Assembly (NCBI GenBank): GCA_944350365.1
Contig: CALVOU010000005.1
Coordinates: forward strand, 1-44,170
DNA from: an uncultured Bacilli bacterium
Lineage (GTDB): Bacteria; Bacillota_I; Bacilli_A; RF39; UBA660
Reading direction: 5' to 3'
DNA: 44,170 bases
Shown: positions 11,494 through 43,896 of the stretch, piece by piece
Layout of the letters: each line of letters starts with the position of its first letter
Numbering within the stretch: position 1 is the first letter of the stretch
Notes under the pieces: model-generated
What the model was told of the DNA's origin: nothing
Databases searched by the model: none
What the model saw: the letters and a program-made list of their open reading frames with translations, nothing else
Position numbers and translations under genes: made by a program

Positions 11494-12401
11494 AAGTTCT
11501 CTGGATATTCTCCTTCTTCAATCATTTTTCGTAAAGCTTTAACAACCGGTTCTGTATCTTCTTTATAAGTTACGCCAATCCATTTTGCGGTTGTCGGTAA
11601 TACTTCTACTGTAGCGTATCCATCTGAAATTGCGTTACTTAAAACATCAGGAATTAGAAATTCACAAGAAGTGAGATCCTCGGCATGGGTTTGAAAAAAT
11701 TGATTCATTTGACTTTCGATATAAGAAAAAATCGACGGAGTAAACACAAGCATATTCATGGAAACTAAAGTGTTTTTATCTACAGAAAAACGAGGTTTAC
11801 CACTTAATGGTTCAGCTTCTATCTTTCCATTTATTTTTTCTACTTTACTTTCAATTAATTCGGTTAAATAATTATTTTTACTTTTACAAACACCTCTTTT
11901 TACTGACCCATTTTCTGTTAGCGTATTTTCTACATTATAGCCAACTAAAGCATATTGATTTTTTGAAGTAGAAGTTTTTTGTTTTAAAAATTCCGCCGCA
12001 GTTTTGAAAGCATCATAGCCATAGAAGTCATCGGCATTGATTACGACAAAATTTTCCATTATTTTATCCTTCGCGCAAAGTATCGCATGAGCAGTTCCCC
12101 ATGGTTTTTTTCGCTCTTGAGGAATCTTAACCCATGCTGGTATTTCGGTTTGTTTTTGAAATGCGTATTCTACAGGAATAATTCGTTCTATTCTTTTTCC
12201 TATCGTGTCTTTAAAATCCTGTAAGTTTTCTTCTTTAATGATAAATACTACTTTAGTAAATCCCGCTCTTATCGCATCATAAACAGAATAATCTGTCAAA
12301 AATTCTCCACTTGGTCCAAATGGTTCGATTTGTTTTAATCCTCCAAAACGGCTTCCCATTCCGGCAGCCATGATTAATAATGTCATGTTTTCTTTTTCCA
12401 T
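11478..12401 (-). CDS. Nucleotidyltransferase (sugar-phosphate NTP transferase fold)
   Basis: 307 residues. The start LLIMAAGMGSRFGGLKQIEPFGPSG is the nucleotide-binding G-x-G-x-R-F-G-G-x-K motif of NTP-transferase enzymes. GTAHAILCAKD and the metal-binding FVVINADDFYG complete the active site. The exact substrate cannot be read from sequence; choline-, sugar- or other phosphate-activating roles are possible. It lies in the pcrA-ligA operon, two bases after the 135-aa gene, with a clean AGGAG site. Confidence 0.85.
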   Translation of the reverse strand: MEKENMTLLIMAAGMGSRFGGLKQIEPFGPSGEFLTDYSVYDAIRAGFTKVVFIIKEENLQDFKDTIGKRIERIIPVEYAFQKQTEIPAWVKIPQERKKPWGTAHAILCAKDKIMENFVVINADDFYGYDAFKTAAEFLKQKTSTSKNQYALVGYNVENTLTENGSVKRGVCKSKNNYLTELIESKVEKINGKIEAEPLSGKPRFSVDKNTLVSMNMLVFTPSIFSYIESQMNQFFQTHAEDLTSCEFLIPDVLSNAISDGYATVEVLPTTAKWIGVTYKEDTEPVVKALRKMIEEGEYPENLWERS

Positions 12402-12402
12402 T

Positions 12403-12810
12403 TTATCTCCTTTTTCTTAAGTATTTATTTGGTTCATTCTTAGCGTTAATGTTTTGTCTTAACATTTCTAAACTATCTTCAAGATGTTCCCCTTTACCTG
12501 ATAAGATAACAGTATCTTTTTTTAAATCATTATAGGGACCAGTAACTTCTCGTTTGATGATATCGGCATGAATTTTATTGTCTGTTAATTGGTAACTACA
12601 ACGCAAAAAAGTATCCTGAAAATTTAATAATGGTCTTATCGCATCGAGTAAGTCTTTAGGGAGCAGATAAATACTTACTTCTTCTATTTTCTCGATTCGA
12701 TAAGGGTGTATTTGCTTCAAGCAACAGGCACTTAAATTGTCATTAAACTGTTTAGAAACGAGTAATTGTTTTCCACTAGTTAACGCTACTTCAATATTCA
12801 TTAGACTCAT
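12403..12810 (-). CDS. Unknown 135-aa protein
   Basis: A soluble protein without signal or TM segment, between pcrA (10-base gap) and the nucleotidyltransferase. The ATG at 12810 has a GGGAG site. Two adjacent cysteines (ACCLKQ) near residue 29 and a basic end (KYLRKRR) are the only notable marks. I recognise no family. Its position between repair and sugar-activating genes does not settle its role. Confidence 0.65.
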   Translation of the reverse strand: MSLMNIEVALTSGKQLLVSKQFNDNLSACCLKQIHPYRIEKIEEVSIYLLPKDLLDAIRPLLNFQDTFLRCSYQLTDNKIHADIIKREVTGPYNDLKKDTVILSGKGEHLEDSLEMLRQNINAKNEPNKYLRKRR

Positions 12811-12819
12811 TTTTTCTCC

Positions 12820-14928
12820 CTACACTTTCTTAATACTTTTATGGTTTTTCATCAACTTCTTTATCCCATAAGGGCTCTTAAAGGCAATACTAATTAAGGT
12901 ATTGGTTACTTCGACAACCCTACCAGCCCCAAAGATATCGTGATAGGCAAAGTCCCCAACTTTCCAGTTGACATCCTCTTGGTGATAATTTTCTTCATGA
13001 TTGGTTTTTATGTGAACTTCTTCTTTATCTAGTTGTGGTTTCTTTCCTTCTGTCATGATCAAATCTTCTTCGATTTCTTGAATAAACCTGCTTGGTGGAT
13101 TTACTTGATCTCTACCAAATAATACCCTTTTTCTCGCATTTAATAGATATAATTTTTCTTTAGCCCTAGTAATCGCTACATAAGCTAATCTTCTTTCTTC
13201 TTCGATTCCCCCACTATCCATTAAGGAATTAATATGTGGGAAGATTCCTTCTTCTAACCCGATGACAAAAACATAGTCGAATTCCAATCCTTTAACAGAA
13301 TGTACTGTCATGAGACTCACTTTATTCTTTGGATCCTGATAATCATCTCGGTCACTGACTAAACTAATTTGATATAAGAAATCTTCTAGTGAGACTAAGC
13401 CATATTCATCTTCAAAACTTTTGGTTACCGTTTTAAATTCTTCCAAGTTTTCTAGATGGTTTTCTGCTTCGAGTGTTTTTTCGTTTTCTAATTCTTTTTT
13501 CATTCCCGTTGTTTCTAAAACTAAGTCAATCAATTCTGTTAACGTACTTTTTTCAGCCTCTTTTTTTAGTTTTTCAATTAAATTTTTAAATTCTAATTCT
13601 TTACCAGAATCAATCGCTTCATATAAACTAATCTGTTCTTGATTCTTTTTTTCGGTTAATTTCTCTATCGTTCTTAACCCAATTCCTCTTTTGGGTACAT
13701 TGATGATTCTCTCCAAAGAAACATCATCTTTACTATTAAAAATCAAACGCAAATAGGCAATTAAATCTTTAATTTCTTTACGATTATAGAAAGTCATTCC
13801 CCCTACGATTCGATATGGAATGCTTTGTTTCATCAATTCTTCTTCGACTGTGCGAGACTGGGCATTGGTTCGATAAAGGATTACTATCTCTTCTGGATTT
13901 GTTCCGTTCGCTAGTAGTTCCTTGATATGATTCGCTACATACGAAGCTTCATCTTTTTCACTCTCGGCACGATAATAAGTAATTTTATCTCCTTTTCCTT
14001 TAGTACTCCACAAATTTTTCTCTTTCCGTTCACGATTATGTTTAATTACTTGATTGGCAGCATCCAAAATATTAGAAGTCGAACGATAATTTTGTTCCAA
14101 CTTGATCGTTGTGGCGTCTTTGTAATCTTTTTCAAAATTTAAAATATTACGGTAGTTAGCCCCTCTAAACGAATAGATAGATTGTGATTCATCACCGACA
14201 ACACAAATGTTTCGAAATTTAGCACTCAACATCTTGGTTAACATATACTGAGCTTCATTGGTATCTTGGTATTCATCAATTAATATATATTGAAAGCGCT
14301 GTTGATATTTTTCTAAAATATCTTTGTTTTCTCTAAATAACCTTATCGGTAAAATTAATAAATCATCAAAATCAACAGAGTTATTTTCTCGTAGCGTCTT
14401 TTCATATTCATAATAAACGGTCAATACTACTTTTTCAAAATCAGTTGATGCGTGGTGTTCATACATGACTGGAGTCACCATTTCATTTTTACAACCACTA
14501 ATTTTACTTTTAATGGCATTAGGATGATATTCCTTTGGATCTAAGTTCAATCGTTTCAAAATCCGTTTAATTACGCTTAATGAATCATCACTATCTAAAA
14601 TACAAAAATTCTTTTCATAACCTAAATAAGCATAATTTTCTCGTAAAATCTTTAAACCAAACGAGTGAAAAGTAGATACTTGGACAATATTAGCTACTTC
14701 ACCCACTAGTGTAGTTAACCTTGTTTTCATTTCTTTAGCGGCTTTATTCGTAAAAGTAATCGCTAAAATATGGTAAGGGTCCACTTCTTTTTCCTCAATT
14801 AAATAGGCAATTCTCGTCGTTAATACCCGAGTTTTTCCACTTCCAGCACCAGCTAGAATAAGTAATGGACCTTCTGTTTTTAATACGGCTTCTTTCTGAT
14901 TTTCGTTTAAGTTATCTATATTTATCAT
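12820..14928 (-). CDS. pcrA: ATP-dependent DNA helicase PcrA/UvrD
   Basis: 702 residues of a superfamily 1A helicase. NENQKEAVLKTEGPLLILAGAGSGKTRVLTTRI is the Q motif plus Walker A. YILIDEYQDTN is motif II, VVGDESQSIYSFRGA motif III, and VSLMTVHSVKGLEFDYVFVIGLEEGIFPH motif V/VI. The end, VGDFAYHDIFGAGRVVEV, is the tudor-like RNA-polymerase-contacting tail found in PcrA. It works in repair, plasmid replication and removal of RecA filaments. It heads the operon that continues to ligA. Confidence 0.97.
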   Translation of the reverse strand: MINIDNLNENQKEAVLKTEGPLLILAGAGSGKTRVLTTRIAYLIEEKEVDPYHILAITFTNKAAKEMKTRLTTLVGEVANIVQVSTFHSFGLKILRENYAYLGYEKNFCILDSDDSLSVIKRILKRLNLDPKEYHPNAIKSKISGCKNEMVTPVMYEHHASTDFEKVVLTVYYEYEKTLRENNSVDFDDLLILPIRLFRENKDILEKYQQRFQYILIDEYQDTNEAQYMLTKMLSAKFRNICVVGDESQSIYSFRGANYRNILNFEKDYKDATTIKLEQNYRSTSNILDAANQVIKHNRERKEKNLWSTKGKGDKITYYRAESEKDEASYVANHIKELLANGTNPEEIVILYRTNAQSRTVEEELMKQSIPYRIVGGMTFYNRKEIKDLIAYLRLIFNSKDDVSLERIINVPKRGIGLRTIEKLTEKKNQEQISLYEAIDSGKELEFKNLIEKLKKEAEKSTLTELIDLVLETTGMKKELENEKTLEAENHLENLEEFKTVTKSFEDEYGLVSLEDFLYQISLVSDRDDYQDPKNKVSLMTVHSVKGLEFDYVFVIGLEEGIFPHINSLMDSGGIEEERRLAYVAITRAKEKLYLLNARKRVLFGRDQVNPPSRFIQEIEEDLIMTEGKKPQLDKEEVHIKTNHEENYHQEDVNWKVGDFAYHDIFGAGRVVEVTNTLISIAFKSPYGIKKLMKNHKSIKKV

Positions 14929-18400: not shown

Positions 18401-18440
18401 AAAAAAGATAGAACTAAACTTTTACTTGTTCTATTCTATC
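18401..18440 (-). terminator. Terminator downstream of the surface protein gene
   Basis: The stem ATAGAAC/GTTCTAT (18408-18414 with 18428-18434) ends on the minus strand in a run of six T. It lies about 120 bases after the surface-protein stop codon. Confidence 0.6.
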
Positions 18441-18494
18441 TAAAATGTAGCATTTTTCTGCTTATCTCCATTTTTCTTCTTTTCCTCATGTTTC

Positions 18495-18546
18495 TCTCCC
18501 CTCCACGAAAGGGTGTGGAAAGAGCAAAGTCGAGGAGCATGGGGTA
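18495..18546. other. GC-rich, foldable segment after the surface protein gene
   Basis: This 52-base segment is much richer in G and C than its surroundings. It contains inverted arms TCCAC and GTGGA around an eight-base loop, with CCCC and GGGG further out. It starts about 10 bases beyond the stop codon of the surface protein. It is too long and complex for a plain terminator and has no T-run. Function unknown. Confidence 0.45.
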
Positions 18547-18556
18547 CATTATTTCT

Positions 18557-20095
18557 CTATTCTACCACTACATATGGATTCTCCTTAGTCCCATCCGCTC
18601 CACCTTCTACCTTTACTCCAGGCTTTAGTGAAATCGCAGGTCGGACGTCGCGCGAGTTGTTGACGTTGTAGTTGCTAAGGTCACCAGTCGAGACAACGTC
18701 GAACACACCCGCACTATTGCCATTGAAGGAGCGAGGTGACAAGGTCCACCAATAATTACCAGTATATAAATGATAACTACTATTGCTTTTTGCAAAAACT
18801 CCTCCCGCATACGCTATCTCATCGGCAGTTAATAACGCTACTGGATATGTTAAAGCTCCATTTCCATTCTCTCTATTTACCGTAAATCGATCATTCTCAT
18901 TTACGCATTCTAATGATGGTGTTTTACTTACAGCCAACCTATTCCTAGCTCCATACATTGTTGTTTCTATTCCTACCCCTGTTCCGGTGTAAGTGCTATC
19001 TGGAACTACACTTCGATCATTACACCAGACAGTATCTTCTAGCTGATTGGTATATTCCGTCATATTTTCTTCATACCAATTATCAATAACTCCTTTTATT
19101 GTGGAATTATTGGTATTGGCATGAGTTTCTTCATAACTAGATGAACCCGTTGTTCCATACATGTATCCTACATAAGCATTATCATTGTGACTAGCATTAA
19201 ATGTACTATTTCCTATTGTTGTAGAACTTCCGGTTGTATTCATACATTGACCACTTTCATTAGGCTTGCCATTATAAATTAGTTTTACTCCTCCGGTTTC
19301 TGTTGTTCTTACTATCTTCCAACAGAAATTGGCAAACTTGACATTATTATTTTCTACTGCCCCTCGATAATACATAATTGGATATTGATTATTTTCTGTC
19401 CCATTTAATATATATAATCCTTTTCCATTCGTATCACTTGATATTTCTGAAAAGTCAATTCCAGTAGAACTCGTTACATAAGTACTAGCGATATTATCTA
19501 AGACCGCTTCTTGTTTCATTAGATTAGCTAAACTCTTGTTTACTGCTTTCTTTTCCGTTGTTGCGACTACTTGACCACTAAATATTAACCCTTGATCTTC
19601 ATTTTGTAAGGCTCCTGTTTCTTGTAACCATATTTTTAAAATATAATACTGCTTTTCACCTGGTTGAATAGCTATATCCGTATTCATTTCTATTGTATTA
19701 TTTCCATCACTAAAATTACCATTAGCGACTTCTTCTTGTTCTACATAACTTTCATTAGCCTTATACAACTTCCATTTTAAGTTTTCACTCTTGGCATCAG
19801 CTTCCCCCTTTTTAAGAGTAATATTATCTAAATACATATAATACGTAGCTTCTAAAGTACCAGTATTTTCTATCGTAAACTGATGTATTCCTGCATTTTC
19901 TTCTTCGGTTGGATTTACATTTTCCAACGAGATATCTTGTCCAGTTAAATACGTTAATTCTAAAGTACCTGACTGTACTGTCTGTTCATCTGACGTAGCC
20001 ATTGCGGTAAAATAAGCATGACTTCCACCCATTAAAATTAAAGTTCCTGCTATGATTAGTAAACTAACGATTAGTGTTTTTCTATTCATTTGCAT
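18557..20095 (-). CDS. Surface protein: SipW/TasA-type N-terminus fused to a C-terminal lectin-like variable domain
   Basis: 512 residues. The N-terminus (hydrophobic stretch, then SHAYFTAMATSDEQTVQSGTL) is the SipW-dependent signal plus start of a TasA/CalY-type beta domain, which runs to about residue 185. A short helical link (KSLANLMKQEAVLDN) leads to a Gly/Asn/Thr-rich region. From about 225 on lies a domain of the C-type-lectin-like kind, with GALTYPVALLTADEIAYAGG and YWWTLSPRSF and ending RDVRPAISLKPGVKV. The WTLSP to RPAI section is the surface loop region that varies in diversity-generating-retroelement targets. Its code (about 18631-18750) is 55 percent GC and uses AAC, GAC, TAC, GTC and CGC, unlike the rest of the gene. 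The protein is likely exported and exposed. Ligand unknown. Confidence 0.78.
   Translation of the reverse strand: MQMNRKTLIVSLLIIAGTLILMGGSHAYFTAMATSDEQTVQSGTLELTYLTGQDISLENVNPTEEENAGIHQFTIENTGTLEATYYMYLDNITLKKGEADAKSENLKWKLYKANESYVEQEEVANGNFSDGNNTIEMNTDIAIQPGEKQYYILKIWLQETGALQNEDQGLIFSGQVVATTEKKAVNKSLANLMKQEAVLDNIASTYVTSSTGIDFSEISSDTNGKGLYILNGTENNQYPIMYYRGAVENNNVKFANFCWKIVRTTETGGVKLIYNGKPNESGQCMNTTGSSTTIGNSTFNASHNDNAYVGYMYGTTGSSSYEETHANTNNSTIKGVIDNWYEENMTEYTNQLEDTVWCNDRSVVPDSTYTGTGVGIETTMYGARNRLAVSKTPSLECVNENDRFTVNRENGNGALTYPVALLTADEIAYAGGVFAKSNSSYHLYTGNYWWTLSPRSFNGNSAGVFDVVSTGDLSNYNVNNSRDVRPAISLKPGVKVEGGADGTKENPYVVVE
18631..18750 (-). other. Candidate variable region of the surface protein
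   Basis: I counted 66 G/C in these 120 bases. The codons for the stretch LSNYNVNNSRDV are almost all AAC or AAC with the adenines changed (AGC, TAC, GAC, GTC, CGC). Asparagine elsewhere in the gene is mostly AAT. The segment ends at RPAISL, a common boundary of such variable regions. No reverse transcriptase or template repeat is present in the window. Confidence 0.55.
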
Positions 20096-20128
20096 TTTCC
20101 CTTTCTCTATCTCTGTATGATTAACTTA

Positions 20129-20157
20129 ATTATAGGATAAATTCTTAGATAAGTAAA
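20129..20157 (-). promoter_or_regulatory. Promoter of the surface protein gene
   Basis: TTTACT (20152-20157), a 17-base spacer and TATAAT (20129-20134) on the minus strand, 34 bases before the ATG. Confidence 0.65.
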
Positions 20158-20268
20158 TAATGTAATTTAAAATGTAAAAATTGTAAATTTGAAGATAGCT
20201 CCTATTATTGTAAAAATCAATAAATAAAATTCATTTCCTGGATTCTCTAGTTCTGACCTATTACATAA

Positions 20269-24647: not shown

Positions 24648-24947
24648 ATGAGAAAATTTTTATATGTTTTACTTATTTTTATTATAGTCCTTGCGATTGC
24701 TAGTTTGTTTTTTTTGGACTTAAATAAGAATGAGGAAAAAGATTCTTCTTTGGAAAAAATTACAGTGGCTGAAGTTGCGCATACAATTTTCTATGCTCCA
24801 CAATATGTGGCAATCAGTCAAGGCTTTTTTGAAGAAGAAGGCTTAGAAATCGAACTATTGTTGACACCTGGTGCAGATAAAGTATCAGCTGCTGTTTTAT
24901 CTGGGGATGTTCAAATTGGTTTTTCTGGTAGTGAAGCATGTATTTAG
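24648..24947 (+). pseudogene. 5' half of an ABC substrate-binding protein gene, cut by the mobile element
   Basis: It encodes 99 residues plus a stop supplied by the inserted DNA. A hydrophobic N-terminal anchor (about 4-24) without lipobox cysteine is followed by ITVAEVAHTIFYAPQYVAISQGFFEEEGLEIELLLTPGADK, the start of an NMT1/SsuA-type binding protein. The last residues GFSGSEACI continue in the downstream half as YVYNAGEKDY. Joining 24946 to 29902 gives a normal-length 331-residue protein. In its present state the fragment cannot bind substrate. Confidence 0.9.
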
Positions 24948-24970
24948 GTCATGGACGGTTAAGGGAAAAT
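24945..24970. other. Left attachment site
   Basis: TA core at 24945-24946, and inside the element the arm TAAGGGAAAAT (24960-24970), 14 bases from the core. Confidence 0.65.
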
Positions 24971-26659
24971 TTATCGATAATCCATTAGAAACTTGATAAA
25001 ATCGCCTCCTGATGAAAATTCCCATTTTTCCTTATATTTCATTATGGATTGATCATAATCTACCAAGATATTTACTCCTGTTTTTAACATTATTTCTAAT
25101 CTTACTAAATGGCGATTATTATTTATTTTGGAAACATAAACATGATCTACCAATAAATCTATATAACTAGATAAATGATATTTAAAATCTAGTTCTTTAT
25201 CTAGTTGACTAATTAATTGTTTATTTTTTTCTCTTTCTACCGGTAACTTAGATTCTAAACCTTGTAGTTCTATGTTGAGATGATAAAGTTTCTGATTCAA
25301 GGCTTCATTTTTCTCTTTAAATTCTTCGTTGGTTATACAGTTACTGCTTACTAGTTCAAATAGTTTTTCTTTTTGAGTTTCTAAATTTATCCGGTTCTTA
25401 GCTAAATTAGATTTTTTCTGAGTAAGTTCCTCATCTATATTGTATTTTTTTATTCTATTAATGAGCCGTTCTTTTATTTTTTCTTTGTTTGGGAAGAATT
25501 TACTGATTATGTACTGGAACAAGATATCGAGATTAGTTTCTTTTAGTAGTGGGCTACTACAGTACTTAAATCCTCTTTTATATAATCGACATGACCAATA
25601 ACGATAATCATTCTTGCGATTCGTTTTTCTACCCGATCTGGTATAAGCAATTTTATGTTCTTTACAGATTAATTTTCCACTGTAAGCATAGTTACTTTTT
25701 TTATTTATTCTTTCTTTACTATGATAATTGTTTTGTTTTTTAGCTAGCTCATTATTTACTCTATCCCATAATTCTTCAGAGACAATAGGAGGAATTTTTT
25801 TATTGTCTTTATAGACTATCCATTTATCTTTAGTAATCTGTTTAGTTATTCCAGATTTATAATCTAAGACGGTTGTTTTATTGCCACAATAGTAACCTTT
25901 ATATTTAGGATTCATCAAGATTCTTCTAATTGTCGTTGTATCAAAAGGTTTTCCTTTGCGATTAAGATATCCCATTTTTTCTAATTGAATCGATGTTTTC
26001 TTTAAGCTAGAATAACTATCGTATAAAGTAAACATCTTTTTCACAGCAGTAGCTTCCTTTTCCATTATTTTTAAACTGCCTTTATCTTTTATATACCCAT
26101 AGATATTATTACTTCCTAACACTACACCTCTTTTTATCGATTGTTTTAATCCGAACTTCACATTTTCTGATAGCTTTCTTAAATCGTCTTGAGCGATGCT
26201 TGCCATTAAAGTTAGACGAAATTCTGAGTCTGGTAAAAAGGTATTAATATTATCATTTAAAAAATAAACACCAACACTGTATTTTAATAATTCTTCTGTA
26301 TATTGAATACTATCTAAAGTATTTCTCGCAAATCGGGGAACGCTTTTCGTTAGAATTAAATCGAATTGATCTTTTTGCGCATCTTCGATCATTTTTAGAA
26401 AAGCTTCTCTTTTATTTACACTTTTTCCACTAATTCCTTCGTCAATATAGCCATCTACGAAGAGCCATTTAGGATTAGATTGAATTAAATGGGAAAAATA
26501 GTCTACTTGATTGACTACCGATGTAGCTTGTTCGTCACTATCACTTGAAACTCTTGCGTAAAAAGTAACTCGTAAAGTTAAATCATAGATTGATTTTCCG
26601 GTTGATATTTGCCTTCTTATTTCTTCTACTAATGAATATTTTTTCTCTTTATTCATCAT
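24971..26659 (-). CDS. Large serine recombinase (integrase)
   Basis: 562 residues, usual for large serine integrases. The resolvase domain holds VTFYARVSSDSDEQ with catalytic Ser38, then IDEGISGKSVNKREAF and LILTKSVPRFARN. Next come the recombinase domain (YDSYSSLKKTSIQLEKMGY... RKGKPFDTTTIRRILMNPKYKG), a zinc ribbon with CKEH...CRLYKRGFKYC and a C-terminal coiled-coil region (about 410-495). It cuts and joins two short att sites with a two-base overlap. The gene ends almost at the left junction, the usual position. A start at residue 2 is equally possible. Confidence 0.96.
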   Translation of the reverse strand: MMNKEKKYSLVEEIRRQISTGKSIYDLTLRVTFYARVSSDSDEQATSVVNQVDYFSHLIQSNPKWLFVDGYIDEGISGKSVNKREAFLKMIEDAQKDQFDLILTKSVPRFARNTLDSIQYTEELLKYSVGVYFLNDNINTFLPDSEFRLTLMASIAQDDLRKLSENVKFGLKQSIKRGVVLGSNNIYGYIKDKGSLKIMEKEATAVKKMFTLYDSYSSLKKTSIQLEKMGYLNRKGKPFDTTTIRRILMNPKYKGYYCGNKTTVLDYKSGITKQITKDKWIVYKDNKKIPPIVSEELWDRVNNELAKKQNNYHSKERINKKSNYAYSGKLICKEHKIAYTRSGRKTNRKNDYRYWSCRLYKRGFKYCSSPLLKETNLDILFQYIISKFFPNKEKIKERLINRIKKYNIDEELTQKKSNLAKNRINLETQKEKLFELVSSNCITNEEFKEKNEALNQKLYHLNIELQGLESKLPVEREKNKQLISQLDKELDFKYHLSSYIDLLVDHVYVSKINNNRHLVRLEIMLKTGVNILVDYDQSIMKYKEKWEFSSGGDFIKFLMDYR

Positions 26660-26915
26660 TAAAATTCTCTTTTCTATCGAGAAATAGTCTTACATTTAGT
26701 GGTGATATAAATGATAGAGATTCTGATTTTAATGTTTTTTCAAAATGTTGTTTTACTTTTAATATTTCTTGATCAATTTCTTCTTTTAACTTTTCATAAG
26801 TAGAAAAGAAAAGAAGATTATATTCATATAGTTGTTTGGATAAGTGTTTCTCAAAGAGTAAATTTAAATGGTTATCTGATAAAATCAAATTTTTAAAATC
26901 TATCGTGTTTTCCAT
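26649..26915 (-). CDS. Small protein upstream of the recombinase, unknown function
   Basis: 88 residues from the ATG at 26913-26915 (GAGGTG site); a GTG at 26924 overlaps that site. It overlaps the recombinase start by 11 bases, so the two are co-translated. It is helical, charged, and without cysteines or a membrane segment. No family is recognised. Position makes it a candidate for a recombinase accessory or directionality factor, but the sequence does not show a DNA-binding motif. Confidence 0.7.
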   Translation of the reverse strand: MENTIDFKNLILSDNHLNLLFEKHLSKQLYEYNLLFFSTYEKLKEEIDQEILKVKQHFEKTLKSESLSFISPLNVRLFLDRKENFNDE

Positions 26916-26988
26916 TTTTTTCACCTCATAAAATCTTATGAGATTATGGCACTTTTATGTTCTCGATAGAATTTCAATGAAAAAGGGT

Positions 26989-27046
26989 AAGAAAAAAATA
27001 GGCCAATATCTGGTTTACTCTAATTGATATTTAACCTATTTTTCTT
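26989..27046. terminator. Bidirectional terminator inside the element
   Basis: Long inverted repeat: AAGAAAAAAATAGG (26989-27002) pairs with CCTATTTTTCTT (27035-27046), and inside it AATATC with GATATT. A- and T-rich outer arms allow it to act on both strands. It separates the exporter genes from the recombinase genes. Confidence 0.75.
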
Positions 27047-27089
27047 ATGATTATCATATATCTGATAGCTATTTTTAGATTTATTTTTT

Positions 27090-28700
27090 CTAGTTTTTGA
27101 TGTCTCGTTTAATATACACGATATTGGTGAGGATATATAGGATAATGCTAATTATTAACGAACTTATGATTCCTGTTCCTAGATTGTATGAAACATTTCT
27201 TAATGAATCAACATAAATTTCAGCATTACTTAGGATATAACCGCAATCTAAATACCAGAATGGTGTATATACTATATTGGGAAAACTATTGGTTATCATC
27301 ATAATCCAAAGGAAGAAAGATACCACAGATAAAGAAGAGATTATTCCTACCGTTAAAGAAGTATTCAATGTTACTGCGGATAGGAAGAATAAAACACTTA
27401 AGAAACAGATGATTGGTATACTAGCTAGAAAGATATCTTTTAAAATGTAGAGATAGTAATTTACTTCTTTAACTTGGCCACCTACATAGACTAATTTGGG
27501 ATCTAATAAATCATTAAAGCCATATTGAATACCGGCAAGTAAGCTAATGATTACAAGACCTAATAGCCATATGAGATAAGTATCTAATAGTAAATAGATA
27601 AATTTACTTAGTAATATTTTCCATCTTTGAACCGGTGTTGTGATGATGTTTTTTATCGTTCCTTTACTATGTTCACGGCTGATAATTCCACTATTCGTAA
27701 TCGCTACAATAATCATGACTACAACAGATAAATGAAATACTTGATTTACTTTTATTTTGGTATTCATATATCTAATGCCTTCTGTTACGCCATCTAATAG
27801 ATTGTAAGAAATATCATGTTCAATTTCATGCTCTGTACTGTATAATAAGATTTCTCTATTTTTTATCGCATCATTTTTTAATTTTGTATTATAGGTCACA
27901 TATTCCTGATAAGAAGCATAATCACCAGATGGTGTTTGATTGTACTCTTCTTCATCCATAATTTCTATTTCAGCGTTTTCTTCTAGACGTTGATATTGTA
28001 AGTAATTTAATCCTAAAAAGTCTGTATTCGTTTCTACCTTCTTGTCTAATAAAATTTGAACAAATTCGTCTTTTTCTATTTTTCCATGATCTACTTGATA
28101 CTGTAAATATAAATAGTATTTATCTTCTTCTAGTAATTGTTGATAATCTGTTATTGTTTGTAGATTATTTTTATATAGTTCTTCTAGTTTGGTCAAATTT
28201 CTACCATTATCGATATCAGCTGATAAAATATTTTGACATATTTTTATTCCATATACACTAGAATTTTCATCTTTGTAATCACAAAATTCTAAAACTTCTT
28301 CATATCTTTGTTCATTTACTATTTTTTCGATTAAGAAATTTTCTGATAAAGTCGGTAATACTTGTTCATCGATGAAGGCAAACTTCCAATCATTCTGATG
28401 ATTTATTTTTTTGTTTAGCAGTATATTCATATAGTCAATATAGTTCCTGCTAAAAAACATTTCATATTCATCGTCTAACGTTTTTTCTTCTTTTTTTTGT
28501 AAGTTATTAAGGGCATTTTCGAAAGACTCGATACTTATTTCCAAACCTGTATCATCATAAGTTGCTTTTTCTTCCAAAAGGTTATCCGTATAACGAATGA
28601 GGAAAAGAGAAGCAATGATTAATACTATGGTGATGATTAGCCATCTTTTTACATTGTAATTTTTAATAAATTCACTTTTGACTAAATTAATTATTTTCAT
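27090..28700 (-). CDS. ABC-2-type exporter permease with large extracellular domain (element cargo)
   Basis: 536 residues from the ATG at 28698-28700 (GGTGA site); longer starts at 28712 or 28718 are less likely. TM1 (about 18-36) is followed by a roughly 280-residue charged extracellular domain. Further TM helices from about 325 to the end form the ABC-2 membrane part, including the coupling region ISREHSKGTIKNIITTPVQRWKILLSKF. The gene overlaps the ATPase gene by 14 bases. Exporters of this kind remove antimicrobial peptides or lipophilic compounds. The large outer domain is unusual compared with the 230-250-residue BcrB/LanEG permeases. Confidence 0.85.
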   Translation of the reverse strand: MKIINLVKSEFIKNYNVKRWLIITIVLIIASLFLIRYTDNLLEEKATYDDTGLEISIESFENALNNLQKKEEKTLDDEYEMFFSRNYIDYMNILLNKKINHQNDWKFAFIDEQVLPTLSENFLIEKIVNEQRYEEVLEFCDYKDENSSVYGIKICQNILSADIDNGRNLTKLEELYKNNLQTITDYQQLLEEDKYYLYLQYQVDHGKIEKDEFVQILLDKKVETNTDFLGLNYLQYQRLEENAEIEIMDEEEYNQTPSGDYASYQEYVTYNTKLKNDAIKNREILLYSTEHEIEHDISYNLLDGVTEGIRYMNTKIKVNQVFHLSVVVMIIVAITNSGIISREHSKGTIKNIITTPVQRWKILLSKFIYLLLDTYLIWLLGLVIISLLAGIQYGFNDLLDPKLVYVGGQVKEVNYYLYILKDIFLASIPIICFLSVLFFLSAVTLNTSLTVGIISSLSVVSFFLWIMMITNSFPNIVYTPFWYLDCGYILSNAEIYVDSLRNVSYNLGTGIISSLIISIILYILTNIVYIKRDIKN

Positions 28701-29670
28701 GTTCTTCACCATTTTCAAAGCTTTCGGTTTCAGAAAAATATTCTTCTTCTAAACTGATGTTTTTATATTTTACTTCTTCGATTCCGAACTCTTTTACTAA
28801 CCTTCCTTGATCAATAATCACTACTCGATCACAAATATTTTCTACTTCTGATAAAATATGACTACTAATTAAGATACTCATATTTTGTTCTTGACTGATC
28901 GTCTTTAACATTTGTCTTAATTCTCTTCTTCCTTTTGGATCTAACCCATTTGTCGGTTCATCTAAAATTAGTAATTTAGGCTTTTTTATCAAAGCATTGG
29001 CTATCGCTAGACGTTGTTTCATTCCTAACGAATATTTCTTTACTTTATCATTGATTCGTGTTTTTAATCCTACAAATTCAATGATTTCCTCAACATATTT
29101 TTGATCATGAAGATCATTTAGTAATTCTGTTATCTTTAAATTTTTTCGTCCAGTAAGTTGATCATACATATCTGGTTTTTCGATAATCGACCCTACTTTA
29201 GATAGTGCTTGTTCTAATTGTTTTTTCGTATCATAACCACAGATTTTTACACTACCTTTATCACAGTAGTAAAGACGAAGAATTGTTTTTATCAATGTAG
29301 TTTTCCCCGCACCATTCGGACCAATTAAACCGATAATATCTCCTTCATAAATGGTTAAGTTAATATTATCTAGAATTTTTCTTTTTCCAAAAGATTTAGA
29401 TAAATTACTTACTTCTAATACTTTACTATGATGATTAACATCTATTTCTTTTTTCTTAAAATTTCTTTCGCCATTTAAAAGTTCTTGTACTGTTACATGA
29501 AATATTTTAGATAACTCTGTTAAATAAGATATATCTGGTGCGTTAATTCCACGTTCCCATTTAGAAATTGAAGTATCTAATATTCCTAACTTATCCGCAA
29601 GTTCTTTTTGAGTGAGCTTATATTCTTTTCTAAGTTTACTAATAAATAATCCCATTTTTTCTTGGTTCAT
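28687..29670 (-). CDS. XRE helix-turn-helix fused to an ABC ATPase (element cargo)
   Basis: 327 residues from the ATG at 29668-29670 (GAGGTG site). Residues about 4-66 form an XRE DNA-binding domain (ISKLRKEYKLTQKELADKLG, then TSISKWERGINAPDISYL). After a short linker (about 67-83) comes a complete ATPase: LEVSNLSKSFGKRKIL, Walker A GPNGAGKTT, signature YSLGMKQRLA, Walker B KLLILDEPTNGLDP and the H-loop in SILISSHILSEVE. The SLGMKQ form of the signature is typical of BcrA/LanF-type peptide exporters. The fusion suggests that the pump can sense its own activity and regulate its promoter. Confidence 0.93.
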   Translation of the reverse strand: MNQEKMGLFISKLRKEYKLTQKELADKLGILDTSISKWERGINAPDISYLTELSKIFHVTVQELLNGERNFKKKEIDVNHHSKVLEVSNLSKSFGKRKILDNINLTIYEGDIIGLIGPNGAGKTTLIKTILRLYYCDKGSVKICGYDTKKQLEQALSKVGSIIEKPDMYDQLTGRKNLKITELLNDLHDQKYVEEIIEFVGLKTRINDKVKKYSLGMKQRLAIANALIKKPKLLILDEPTNGLDPKGRRELRQMLKTISQEQNMSILISSHILSEVENICDRVVIIDQGRLVKEFGIEEVKYKNISLEEEYFSETESFENGEEHENN

Positions 29671-29768
29671 GATAAACACCTCAAGTTCATCTTAACAATT
29701 TATGAATAAAAAGTATATAGCTTATTCCGCTAGTTATCATTTACTTTATTTTTCAGAGAAAAATCAAC

Positions 29769-29933
29769 ATGAGTAATACAAAAATAATTGAAATTAAATT
29801 AAATGATAATCAAAAACTTTCTTTGCCTTTTCAATATACTAATAGGTATAATTTGGATATAATGATTATTTTACTATTATCCTTTAGGAGACAGCTAGCT
29901 ATGTTTATAATGCCGGCGAAAAAGATTATTTGA
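29769..29933 (+). CDS. Possible 54-aa ORF across the right junction
   Basis: ATG at 29769-29771, stop TGA at 29931-29933. The first 25 residues (MSNTKIIEIKLNDNQKLSL...) look like the start of a normal protein. The frame then crosses the element end into host DNA in a different frame from the transporter gene. The ribosome site is weak. It could be a remnant whose 3' part differs at every insertion site, or chance. Confidence 0.25.
   Translation: MSNTKIIEIKLNDNQKLSLPFQYTNRYNLDIMIILLLSFRRQLAMFIMPAKKII
29876..29901. other. Right attachment site
   Basis: TA core at 29900-29901, and inside the element the arm 29876-29886. Read inward from the core on the opposite strand, the arm is TAAAGGATAAT, a 9 of 11 match to the left arm at the same 14-base distance. 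The palindrome AGCTAGCT (29893-29900) lies at the end. Confidence 0.65.
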
Positions 29934-30598
29934 AAACATTTGCGCAATTAACCCAGAAAGATGGTTCTTTCTTAGTCTCAAGAGAAAAATATGAAGACTT
30001 TACTCTTGATGACTTACGAGGAAAAAGTGTGATTGGTGGTAGAAAAGGTGGTATGCCTGAAATGACATTTGAATGGGCACTTCGGCAAAATGGAATCGAT
30101 CCGGTTAACGATTTAGATATCGATACAAGTGTTGCCTTTGCGGCAATGTCTGGCGCTTTTATGGGTGGGCAAGGAGACTTTGTAACCTTATTTGAACCTA
30201 ATGCTACTCAAATTGAAAATCAAGGTTTTGGTTACGTAGTAGCATCCATCGGTGAACTTGGAGGAGTTGTTCCATACACTTCTTATAGTGCTAGAATCAG
30301 TTATATTGAAGAAAATCCAGAGATCATTGAGAAATTTACAAGAGCTATCCAAAAGGGGTTAGATTATGTACACAATCACAGTGATAAAGAAGTTGCTAAC
30401 GCGATTATCGAATTCTTCCCAGATACCTCTATGAATGATTTAGTAGAAGTTATTGCTCGATATCGTAGTATCGATGCATGGCCTACTACAACAGATTTCA
30501 AGGAAGATTCATTCTATCATTTACAAGATATCATGAAAGCAGCAGGAGAGCTGGATAATACGGTAAAATATGAAGATTTAATTTATACTAAGGATTAG
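29900..30598 (+). pseudogene. 3' half of the ABC substrate-binding protein gene
   Basis: 232 residues in the frame of the host gene, beginning YVYNAGEKDYLKTFAQLTQKDGSFLV and running to a natural stop. GGRKGGMPEMTFEWALRQ, AAMSGAFMGGQGDFVTLFEP and YVVASIGELGGVVPYTSY are conserved NMT1-like blocks. A TTG at 29930 opens a reading frame but has no ribosome site and would lack the first lobe and signal. It is followed by the ATPase gene one base after its stop. The true substrate (sulfonate, pyrimidine or other) is not clear. Confidence 0.9.
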
Positions 30599-40113: not shown

Positions 40114-43100
40114 TTACCTTGTTCTAGTATTTTCTTCTGCATTTTCTAATGATTGCCCAAATTCACTTGGTGTGATTACGCTACGTGCAAGTGTACCATC
40201 TTCGTTTTGCCAAGTACTTACGATTGTTTTTCCTTCATTACCAGCTTGAACTAGGGCATCAACACCATTAATTTCACTAAGAGTTCCATCTGCTTCTACT
40301 TGATACATTTTTCCGGCTTCTACATTCGTATTTTGCCAAATGTCTTGAACGCTACTTGATTGAGCATATAGCTGATTTTGTTGAGTGGCTGCACTATGGA
40401 TGTCTTTGTATACTGCATCACTACCCGTTGCGATTCTAGCTTGCTCATCGGCTAATACTTGCGTAGCAATATTATTATTATCAACTACTGCAGTTTCAGT
40501 GGATACTTGTTGAATTGCTTCGTCAACGGCACTAGCTATTGGTGATTCAGCAATTAGTTCATCATCTGCTTCTTGGCTTATTTCCTTTGCAGTTTTTTCG
40601 ACTTCTGCAACCTTATCATTTCTAAAAGCACTAATGCCAGATATAGCAATTGTTCCTATTATACCTGTTGTTGCTAATAAAGCAGCGGCTTTAACTGGGT
40701 GTTCTTTAATCCAATTTAAGACTTTCTTAGCTTGCTTTTTCAAGCTATTTAATATTCCACGTAATTTTGTATTAGGTTCGGTTAATTTGTCTACTTCTTC
40801 ATCGTCTAATTTAAGGATGCTTTGCTTATCCTGTTTCTTTCTATTGGAATCATCTTTCTTTGGATCTGGGTAATCCTTATTTTTTACTTTCTCATATAAT
40901 TCAATATATTCATTAATTTTTTGCTCAAGATCTTGCTTTTCTGCCTGTATATTCTGAATTCTGTTTGCTAATCTAGCTATGATAACATCAGATGTAAGTT
41001 TTGAAGTATCAAGTCCTGCACCATTCTTTTTATACTCATTCATTACCCTATCTTTTTCTTCTGGTGTTCCGTTTTTCAATATATTTAAATTAGCTTCGTA
41101 TTTTTTTGATGCATGATTAAGATTATCTATAATTGGTTGAGCAATCTTTCTTAGTGTTTCTTCTACTTTCTCTTTACTTTCATTATTTCTTATTCGATCC
41201 TTTAACTCTTTATCTAAATCATCAATAGGAAAATTAATTGTTACTTTTTTTGCCTTTGACGATAATAGATTCTGCTCACCTTCCAAAAGGGCTTTGATAT
41301 TTTCAACTTCGGAATTATTAATTGTTTTACTAGTTAGCATTTCCTTAACTTCATTATTAATACTATCTAATATTGCTTTACGCTCTACTTGATCAGTAGT
41401 TTGCTCTAATTTTGATACATTGGTATATATAGCTTCTAATCCTTGTTTTCTATTATTATTTACTGGTTGTTGTGCTTGTTTAGCTAAATATTGATCGTAT
41501 TTAATCTTATAGTTTGCAAATTTTTGTAATGCTTCGTTTAAAGGTTGTAGATAAACACTATATTCATTAGCATGCTTTAAATCATCAAGTGACTGTTTGA
41601 AATTTATCAAATCTTCAGCAGAAATTTCATCCGATGGATTATTATTAATTTTATAAAAGACTTGTTTAGCTTGTTGTTCTTCTGCGATATTAAATTGACC
41701 TGCTGTACTTCTTAAAAAGCTTTCATCTATTTTAGGTTTTTCAGGGGCTTTTAACCCATTTTCTGTATTGTAATAATCTATAAATTCATTAAGCGATTTA
41801 GCCAATGGTTCTAAATAAACACTATTTGCATTTTTATCTTTTAGTCTGTCTATCGCTTCTTTAAACTCATCTAATTCTTTTCTAGTTAACTTCTCATTCT
41901 GGTTAGAATTAATCTTTAAAAATGCTTGCTTAGCCTGCTGCTCTTCTGCAATATTAAACTGGCCTGCCGTATTTCTTAAGAAACTTTCATCTAGTTTTGG
42001 TCTTTGCATATTTTGAGAAAGATTATTATCAACAAGTTCAGCAACTTTTCTATTGTTTACAGAATTATAGTAATCTGTATAGTCTTGTAAAGCTTCTGTT
42101 AATGGTTCTAGATATATACTATTAGCATTTTTCTCTCTTAGATTATCAACTGCTTCTTTAAATTCTAATAGTTCTTCTTTACTCATTTCTGGATTTGAGT
42201 TGGAATTAATTTTCAAAAATGCTTGTTTAGCTTGTTGTTCCTCCGCAATATTAAATTGGCCCGCTGTATTTCTTAAAAAACTTTCGTCAATTTTTGGTCT
42301 TTCTATTGGAACAGGATTATTTTCTTGATTATAATATTGTGTAAATTCATTTAAGGCTTTTTCTAATGGTTCTAAATAAATGCTATAAGAATTTTTACTT
42401 TTTAAATTATCTATTGCCTCTTTGAATTCTTCTAATTCTTCCTGAGTTAACTTTTCATTCTGATTAGAATTAATCTTTAAAAATGCTTGTTTAGCTTGTT
42501 GTTCTTCTGCAATATTAAATTGGCCCGCTGTATTTCTTAAAAAACTTTCGTCGATTTTTGGTCGTAAAGTTTTTTTCTTCGTGAAATTCGGTTGATAGTT
42601 TGGCTGGAGAGTATTTTGTTTCGCAGCCTCATTTTCAATTATATTTTTTAATTGATTCTTATAATGGTCAACTAGATTTTGATATTTTTCTACTTGCTCA
42701 CGATTGCCTTGTTCAATTTTATTTGCAGTTTGCTGAATCAACTGTTCAGCCTTTTCCTTAATAAAGCAATATCTCACGTCCATTTTCGCTTTATAATCCT
42801 CATCATAGGACAAATATCCATCCTTATCTTTATCTGGTTCAGATTGATTACTAACTGGTGTTGTTGGTCCCTGATTGCCATCTAAAGTCTTTGAAAAATT
42901 CTTCTCAATATCTGCTAACTTTGCTTCTAAGTCTTCTTTCTTTATATCAGTAGACACTTGAATAGCAGTAGTTGCATTGGCTATTATTTCTAATGAAGGG
43001 AGTACTTTAGCAACATCTAGAGCATAATTAATTTCTTTTCTTCTTCTAGCTACTTCGGACAATTCCTCGTCTATTGCTGTTTTTTGTTCATTAAATGCCT

Positions 43101-43896
43101 CATAATCAATATTTTGATCTTGACTAGCAGCGAGTATATCTTGAGCCTGTCTATAGACGACGTCGATAATTTCTTCTTCAGCGCCTTTAGCATCTTCTTT
43201 TAAAACATCCACATATTTCTCGGTGATTATCATGCCATAATTTTCTATTTCATTAATATAATTAGCTATATATTGTCTATTAAAGTCATCAACATTATTG
43301 ATTTCTATTTTATCCCCAGTATATCCATGTTTTTTTAATTCATCTACAATTGCCTGAGCACTTGATAATCGTTTAGTATTATATTTTTCCTGTAACTGTT
43401 TTAGTTCTTCTTCAGAATAAATTTCATTTAATGGTAAAGTGGCATCAAAGTTATTAATGCCCTCAACTAACTCATTCATCCAACCATATACTTCATTACT
43501 GTCGTTCCAATCTATATCGTTTTTGGTCATAAAATTATGATAAAATTCATCACTAGCCTTTTCTCTTTTTTCTTGTTCCTCTCTAGCTAGTGCTTCTGCT
43601 CTAGCAGACATAACTAAAATAGGAGACCTAGGGCCCTTATCTCTTTTTTTAAACTGTTCTGAGAATGCTGCCATTAGATAGTTATTCTTTGCAGCATCGG
43701 CATTATTTTCATAAATCTCTAATCTCACTTTTAGTAATTGCACTTCAATATCCTCAGTGGTCTGGCAATTTTCTGTAGTAATTGGAATTCCATAGATTTG
43801 ACTTTCTACTTCATTTCCTGTTTCTTGTCTTTTAGCCAACATTCTATTGGCCAATTCAATAATTGATTCATTTTCAAGCTTTTCCAATCTTTCCAT
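40114..43896 (-). CDS. Very large repeat protein with one C-terminal membrane helix, unknown function
   Basis: 1260 residues. The first 440 or so are charged and helical, with predicted coiled coil. Residues about 445-800 hold four copies of an 87-100-residue unit that starts RPKIDESFLRNTAGQFNIAE and continues with a helical stretch ending near IYLEPLxxAL. A further helical region leads to one TM helix at about 1085-1108 (VKAAALLATTGIIGTIAISGIS), then an acidic tail of about 150 residues. There is no N-terminal signal, so most of the protein is probably cytoplasmic and anchored near its C-terminus. The family is not recognised. Two promoters precede it. Confidence 0.8.
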   Translation of the reverse strand: MERLEKLENESIIELANRMLAKRQETGNEVESQIYGIPITTENCQTTEDIEVQLLKVRLEIYENNADAAKNNYLMAAFSEQFKKRDKGPRSPILVMSARAEALAREEQEKREKASDEFYHNFMTKNDIDWNDSNEVYGWMNELVEGINNFDATLPLNEIYSEEELKQLQEKYNTKRLSSAQAIVDELKKHGYTGDKIEINNVDDFNRQYIANYINEIENYGMIITEKYVDVLKEDAKGAEEEIIDVVYRQAQDILAASQDQNIDYEAFNEQKTAIDEELSEVARRRKEINYALDVAKVLPSLEIIANATTAIQVSTDIKKEDLEAKLADIEKNFSKTLDGNQGPTTPVSNQSEPDKDKDGYLSYDEDYKAKMDVRYCFIKEKAEQLIQQTANKIEQGNREQVEKYQNLVDHYKNQLKNIIENEAAKQNTLQPNYQPNFTKKKTLRPKIDESFLRNTAGQFNIAEEQQAKQAFLKINSNQNEKLTQEELEEFKEAIDNLKSKNSYSIYLEPLEKALNEFTQYYNQENNPVPIERPKIDESFLRNTAGQFNIAEEQQAKQAFLKINSNSNPEMSKEELLEFKEAVDNLREKNANSIYLEPLTEALQDYTDYYNSVNNRKVAELVDNNLSQNMQRPKLDESFLRNTAGQFNIAEEQQAKQAFLKINSNQNEKLTRKELDEFKEAIDRLKDKNANSVYLEPLAKSLNEFIDYYNTENGLKAPEKPKIDESFLRSTAGQFNIAEEQQAKQVFYKINNNPSDEISAEDLINFKQSLDDLKHANEYSVYLQPLNEALQKFANYKIKYDQYLAKQAQQPVNNNRKQGLEAIYTNVSKLEQTTDQVERKAILDSINNEVKEMLTSKTINNSEVENIKALLEGEQNLLSSKAKKVTINFPIDDLDKELKDRIRNNESKEKVEETLRKIAQPIIDNLNHASKKYEANLNILKNGTPEEKDRVMNEYKKNGAGLDTSKLTSDVIIARLANRIQNIQAEKQDLEQKINEYIELYEKVKNKDYPDPKKDDSNRKKQDKQSILKLDDEEVDKLTEPNTKLRGILNSLKKQAKKVLNWIKEHPVKAAALLATTGIIGTIAISGISAFRNDKVAEVEKTAKEISQEADDELIAESPIASAVDEAIQQVSTETAVVDNNNIATQVLADEQARIATGSDAVYKDIHSAATQQNQLYAQSSSVQDIWQNTNVEAGKMYQVEADGTLSEINGVDALVQAGNEGKTIVSTWQNEDGTLARSVITPSEFGQSLENAEENTRTR
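41640..42565 (-). repeat. Four in-frame direct repeats in the large-protein gene
   Basis: Units begin near 42564, 42302, 42002 and 41737 on the minus strand (spacing 262, 300 and 265 bases). The first 90-100 bases of each unit are nearly identical, mainly the code for PKIDESFLR(N/S)TAGQFNIAEEQQAKQ. Such identity suggests recent copying or recombination. Confidence 0.88.

Follow-up and report, generated by a model that had tools for sequence, protein, structure and literature searches.

How does a gene in an AT-rich stretch of bacterial DNA come to end in a short and sharply bounded GC-rich block, and is that block still being rewritten? The question is raised by a stretch of 44,170 nucleotides from an uncultured Bacilli bacterium, the whole of which is called the window here. 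On its minus strand a gene at positions 18557-20095 encodes a protein of 512 amino acids with a putative SipW/TasA-type N-terminus, a middle domain and a C-terminal DUF6273-like (C-type-lectin-like) domain. A sequence-only reading of the window had singled out a block of 55% GC in this last domain (18631-18750) and proposed that it is the remote target of a diversity-generating retroelement (DGR). As to composition the proposal holds: with a GC content of 0.55 against a window mean of 0.31, the block ranks first among the 4405 overlapping 120-bp segments of a 44-kb scan, and third-position GC climbs from 0.18 over the preceding 60 codons to 0.68 within it. The C-terminal WTLSP...VRPAISLKPG is present in the protein as described. 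The codons had been said to look like AAC with altered bases, and the alignment with the template described below bears this out: the codons facing template AAC or AAT are changed at first and second bases, while all 14 retain the form NNY and 11 of the 14 the form NNC. It was also right that the window holds neither a reverse transcriptase nor a template; none is found among its open reading frames, and both lie on another contig, C35. Several questions follow. What could have written the block? Is it still within reach of that machinery? Where was it diversified?

The host genome (G000) is a draft assembly of 1.47 Mb in 80 contigs with a completeness of 95.8%. When the block was used as the query against it, two more strong matches were obtained, C1:378-598 and C35:13912-14023, the latter with an E value of 4.2e-18. 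The match on C35 is a template repeat of 112 bp on the minus strand, which is followed on the same strand by an Avd-like open reading frame (about 13330-13711) and then by a reverse transcriptase gene (11838-13340; 500 amino acids). The near-copy beside a reverse transcriptase and an Avd-like gene, for which the sequence-only reading had proposed to search the rest of the genome, is thus present. The reverse transcriptase is the single one in the genome: the matching part, C35:12471-13142 (PF00078, E 1.3e-19), lies on the same strand directly downstream of the template. The enzyme matches the PHROG reverse-transcriptase family of phages with an E value of 1.6e-81, its translation contains IGAMTSQ (of the IGxxxSQ type) and YMDD motifs, and its best match among solved structures is 8ub7, 'Reverse transcriptase' (328 amino acids, E 2.5e-25), which we take to be the DGR enzyme of BPP-1. 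Near the C-terminus a MutS_I domain is found above the Pfam cut-off (residues 353-391, E 0.00027); to our knowledge the BPP-1 enzyme has no such extension. Reverse transcriptases related to the C35 enzyme were found in 161 of the 386 family genomes sampled (E 1e-20). Relatives at the family level, from several genera (e.g., L150-L157), are about 490-510 amino acids long and align up to residues 475-490; judged from these sequences, other genomes probably have a C-terminal extension of MutS_I type too. Matches of the Avd-like frame are weak (NF033474 DivGenRetAVD, E 0.0012, 19.1 bits against an NCBI curated cut-off of 80; phrog_3206 'Avd protein of DGR', E 0.0044), and comparison of its product with solved structures gave chance matches only; its position and size fit Avd. 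Contig C35 begins 252 bp upstream of the template, within a repeat that is also found 3' of the C1 target and of a target in a related species (G015:C25). Because the contig breaks off in a repeat that follows other targets, an unassembled cis target likely lies beside this contig end, upstream of the template.

How targets would look while they are being rewritten can be seen in the match on C1, denoted VR2 here (VR, variable repeat), which belongs to a gene whose product is 82% identical to the window protein and is thus its paralogue. Against the template, VR2 has mismatches at 19 of the 32 adenines and at none of the 80 other bases (p = 2.5e-13). In the related species G015 an identical template is accompanied by five VRs on five other contigs, each of which departs from it at 13-18 adenines and at 0-3 other sites. 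The template of a third species, G016, has 21 non-adenine differences from the C35 template and none at adenines, as expected if selection keeps the adenines. Taken together by sequence, the system of the host genome is a multi-target DGR whose targets would be surface proteins of SipW/TasA type that end in DUF6273. The exact template-like pattern was not found in viral contigs, nor were relatives of the target protein.

In the assembly of G015 the reverse transcriptase gene (G015:C26, L065, 699-2220) is interrupted by one or more stops and by a change of frame. The targets of this species look freshly diversified despite the broken gene, and its cassette DNA is 97.9% identical to that of the host genome; the element may be either a recently dead DGR or one affected by assembly errors. 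One further stretch of that genome, G015:C58:18277-18525, was considered as an unmutated VR and set aside: it passes from the template 5' flank through a VR lengthened by one AAC into the 3' end of a target, lies at a contig end, and is probably an assembly chimera.

The copy in the window, VR1, has a different appearance. Its limits, 18637-18748 on the minus strand, were set from the gap-free alignment to the 112-bp template (C35:13912-14023, minus strand). With the template as query, VR1 is matched at 77% identity (E 2.1e-18), and the 26 mismatches fall on 15 of the 32 template adenines and on 11 of about 79 other sites (p about 0.0004). The expectation that differences are limited to adenines therefore holds for VR2, where it applies to 19 of 19, and fails for VR1, where it applies to 15 of 26; this share of 58% is under the 75% reached by nearly all described DGRs (PMC8144416). 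The 11 other mismatches deserve attention. Eight are at third codon positions. At every one of these sites VR2 and all five G015 VRs have the template base and none has the base of VR1, and at most five of these private bases are shared with any other single copy. A similar separation is seen in the 3' coding flank, where VR1 is 79-85% identical to the active targets and these are 91-99% identical among themselves; over the 450 bp upstream the values are 83-90% for VR1 against active copies and 82-92% among the active copies. The comparison of flanks and private bases argues that template bases have been homogenised in the active VRs but not in VR1.

The 3' end of the repeat points the same way. 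By analogy with BPP-1 we infer that this end serves as the IMH (PMC3240598). In the candidate region of VR1 (18637-18649, minus strand), three of the final 13 bases are non-adenine mismatches (GACGTCCGACCTG against GGCGTTCGGCCTG); VR2 and the G015 VRs have no non-adenine mismatch in these 13 bases. Farther downstream, at 18494-18524 on the minus strand, lies the remnant of an inverted repeat, whose stem, 10 bp long at the C1 target, is shortened to about 5 bp here, and the DNA fold downstream of the target has a z score of -0.92 for VR1 against -3.70 for VR2. The hairpin is missing behind several active G015 targets as well, so that it was rejected as a generally required homing signal and its decay at VR1 is not decisive. 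A short inverted repeat right behind the active VRs was no more stable than shuffled sequences (z 0.18). No template closer to VR1 was found in the genus or family genomes searched. Going by these sequence comparisons, VR1 was most likely diversified in the past and is now no longer rewritten.

We therefore favor, with a probability of roughly 0.8, the explanation that VR1 is a remote target VR of the C35 DGR, which would have been diversified in the past and would since have escaped rewriting. The sequence-only proposal of a DGR target thus finds support, with the qualification that the block is better regarded as a target of the past, or one served only rarely, than as one that is actively diversifying. 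On the model of BPP-1, the enzyme would make cDNA from the template RNA, misreading adenines, and the mutated cDNA would replace the VR in the surface gene. By the same analogy, each replacement would alter the loop by which the C-type-lectin-like domain binds its ligand; the domain itself would be displayed by means of the SipW-type exported N-terminus. The window copy may have been diversified earlier by the C35 template or a close relative of it and then have come out of reach of rewriting. Its binding loop would thereby be fixed and the repeat would gather mainly silent point mutations; we propose that the mismatches of VR1 outside adenines are mostly silent because it has escaped.

Where did the diversification take place? 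The segment carrying the target gene, 18405-20265, is about 1.86 kb long (limits about +/-15 bp) and occupies this locus in the host genome alone: in four relatives (G001, G015, G007 and G016) the flanking HerA-like and ffh genes are joined directly. The flanks of this empty site in G001 are 96% identical to those of the host genome. Since the non-adenine divergence of VR1 is 14% against a flank divergence of 4%, it is probably older, by this measure, than the arrival of the gene at the ffh locus, or of another source. Movement of DGR parts between species is suggested in addition by the cassette itself, of which 3.6 kb is 97.9% identical between the host genome and G015 when the ffh loci are 85-89% identical; transfer of the cassette is the most likely explanation of this difference. 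The window gene could accordingly have come in already diversified in another lineage, or as a moved cassette, and never have been a target of C35 in this genome, and the wide scatter of its family would also fit. A donor copy was not found in the genus genomes, and later rewriting would still have been possible after an arrival of this kind. We regard this alternative as possible though somewhat doubtful; it is compatible with past diversification and later escape and differs from it solely in the place where diversification occurred.

Another possible alteration was noted elsewhere in the window. An ABC-transporter substrate-binding protein gene is apparently split into 24648-24947 and 29930-30598 (plus strand) by inserted DNA, some 5 kb long and spanning about 24948-29900, that contains a large serine recombinase, a small open reading frame and an HTH/ABC-transporter pair, with the 6-bp TTTAGG at both edges (24943 and 29883).

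Could VR1 instead still be active, being served by a second template that bears the 11 private bases and is unassembled or recently lost? There would be room for one: 252 bp upstream of its template C35 runs out in a repeat, the assembly lacks about 4% of the genome, and relatives carry diverged templates, such as that of G016 with its 21 differences, none of them at an adenine. However, only one reverse transcriptase was detected in the host genome, and no copy more than 78% like VR1 occurs in any genome of the genus. The private bases are absent from the C35 template and the active VRs and are shared to the extent of at most five with any other copy, and the placement of eight of the 11 at third codon positions is the pattern of drift in a translated gene. 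We consider a second template unlikely. That the block is simply a lectin loop that evolves fast, resembling the template by common ancestry and not by copying, would suit the high variability of this loop in paralogues without a template match, but the leap of third-position GC at the edge of the template match (0.18 outside, 0.68 inside), the enrichment of VR1 mismatches at template adenines (p = 0.0004) and the nearly pure adenine-changed copies represented by VR2 and the five G015 VRs make it extremely improbable.

What would be varied by such a system? The C-terminus of the window protein matches Pfam DUF6273 under the cut-off (E 0.002). Comparison of the target family with solved structures by sequence gave chance matches only, and a single-sequence structure model of the window protein was uninformative (mean pLDDT 36), so that the lectin fold rests on the DUF6273 similarity and on published models of DUF6273. 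The SipW/TasA-type N-terminus, another element of the sequence-only reading, is weak in the window protein itself, in which TIGR04088 scores 18.1 bits, under its cut-off of 19, and TIGR04089 likewise falls short; it stands on firmer ground in the C1 paralogue, where Peptidase_M73/camelysin is above the cut-off (25.4 bits against 22.5). A SipW-type signal peptidase (TIGR02228, above cut-off) is encoded at C1:30873-31391. The natural reading, from sequence similarity and analogy with the modelled domains, is that the window protein would be a lectin at the cell surface whose loop varies; it may act as an adhesin, as the sequence-only reading suggested. The window also encodes, at 40114-43896 on the minus strand, a protein of 1260 amino acids in which four long repeats, nearly identical to one another, are built around RPKIDESFLRNTAGQFNIAEEQQAKQAFLKINSN; its EF-hand matches are weak. 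Elsewhere in the host genome, at C13:11146-13347, the N-terminal TasA-like module occurs four times in tandem without the lectin part; these modules may be subunits of a fibre for the variable proteins.

VR1 belongs to a large family. There are 22 further matches to the window protein in the host genome, the template among them and many cut at contig ends, and relatives occur in 13 of the 17 genus genomes (E 1e-10). Third-position GC of the block forms a gradient, from 0.73-0.81 in the active copies through 0.68 in VR1 and 0.57-0.70 in seven copies of G007 to 0.2-0.3 in many paralogues; some of the low-GC paralogues keep the NNY form at each of the 14 template-AAC positions, and the loop is strongly variable also where there is no match to the template. 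In the single genome G007 there are at least seven VR-like blocks rich in GC (L073, L074, L114-L117), and a reverse transcriptase of DGR type was not detected in it. Its seven GC-rich copies differ at 0.62 of template-adenine sites and at 0.27 of the others (2.3-fold); they may be either orphan targets or targets of a missing cassette. On these sequence patterns we tentatively suggest that the surface-lectin family of the genus may be largely made by DGRs, with diversified copies leaving the reach of the enzyme and persisting as fixed binding variants. The routes out of reach might be loss of 3' identity, movement of the gene and loss of the reverse transcriptase. The family might then preserve old specificities as an archive, VR1 being a young entry and the AT-rich paralogues old ones. 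Selection for small polar residues and tyrosine in the binding loop could account for part of this pattern.

Within the searches made, three features are possibly new: the SipW/TasA-type display, the fusion of reverse transcriptase with MutS_I, and a graded series of copies from active to escaped. Metagenome surveys of DGRs have been blind to targets away from the reverse transcriptase (PMC8144416). Such remote targets can be found, since the present one was recognized from nothing but the texture of its codons and then borne out by the genome. This genus brings together copies of a single target family that are active, recently escaped and possibly long escaped, a series that allows one to ask how the rewriting of a target stops and whether useful variants persist. 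If the lectins sit on TasA-like fibres, this would be a chromosomal bacterial system that varies surface adhesion.

How does the system compare with those already known? With BPP-1 (PMC3240598, PMC12875486) it shares a reverse transcriptase, an Avd or (here) Avd-like gene, a template, a VR at the 3' end of the target gene and adenine-directed mutations, whereas the BPP-1 cassette belongs to a phage and has one adjacent target. In BPP-1 the hairpin follows the VR closely and is a strong promoter of homing (PMC3240598, PMC12875486); here the hairpin lies about 120 bp downstream and is found at some targets only. DUF6273 targets of gut phage DGRs, the tentaclins, have been modelled as C-type lectins with the VR on a hypermutated surface beta-hairpin (PMC10743442). 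The VR lies within the DUF6273 domain in both cases, but tentaclins are phage proteins with immunoglobulin-like domains and two targets inside the DGR cassette (PMC10743442), whereas the present family is bacterial and chromosomal, with a predicted SipW-type exported N-terminus and dispersed targets. A MutS-like protein, MSL (PF01624), has been named as a DGR accessory protein (PMC10053308); the same Pfam domain is fused here to the C-terminus of the reverse transcriptase. The closest precedent is the TvpA-family DGR of Treponema denticola, in which one reverse transcriptase and one template serve as many as seven target genes dispersed about the chromosome (PMC4891356), and by which dispersed as well as leftover targets are already known: T. 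denticola isolates have 'suspicious', excessively mutated targets and also targets left over from lost or different DGRs. Both systems have dispersed targets that are surface proteins with a C-type-lectin fold (predicted in the present case). The accessory protein of T. denticola is of the HRDC kind and the targets are FGE-sulfatase-like, with no SipW/TasA-type N-terminus described for them in the passages considered (PMC4891356), whereas here the accessory protein is Avd-like and the targets are of the DUF6273 type.
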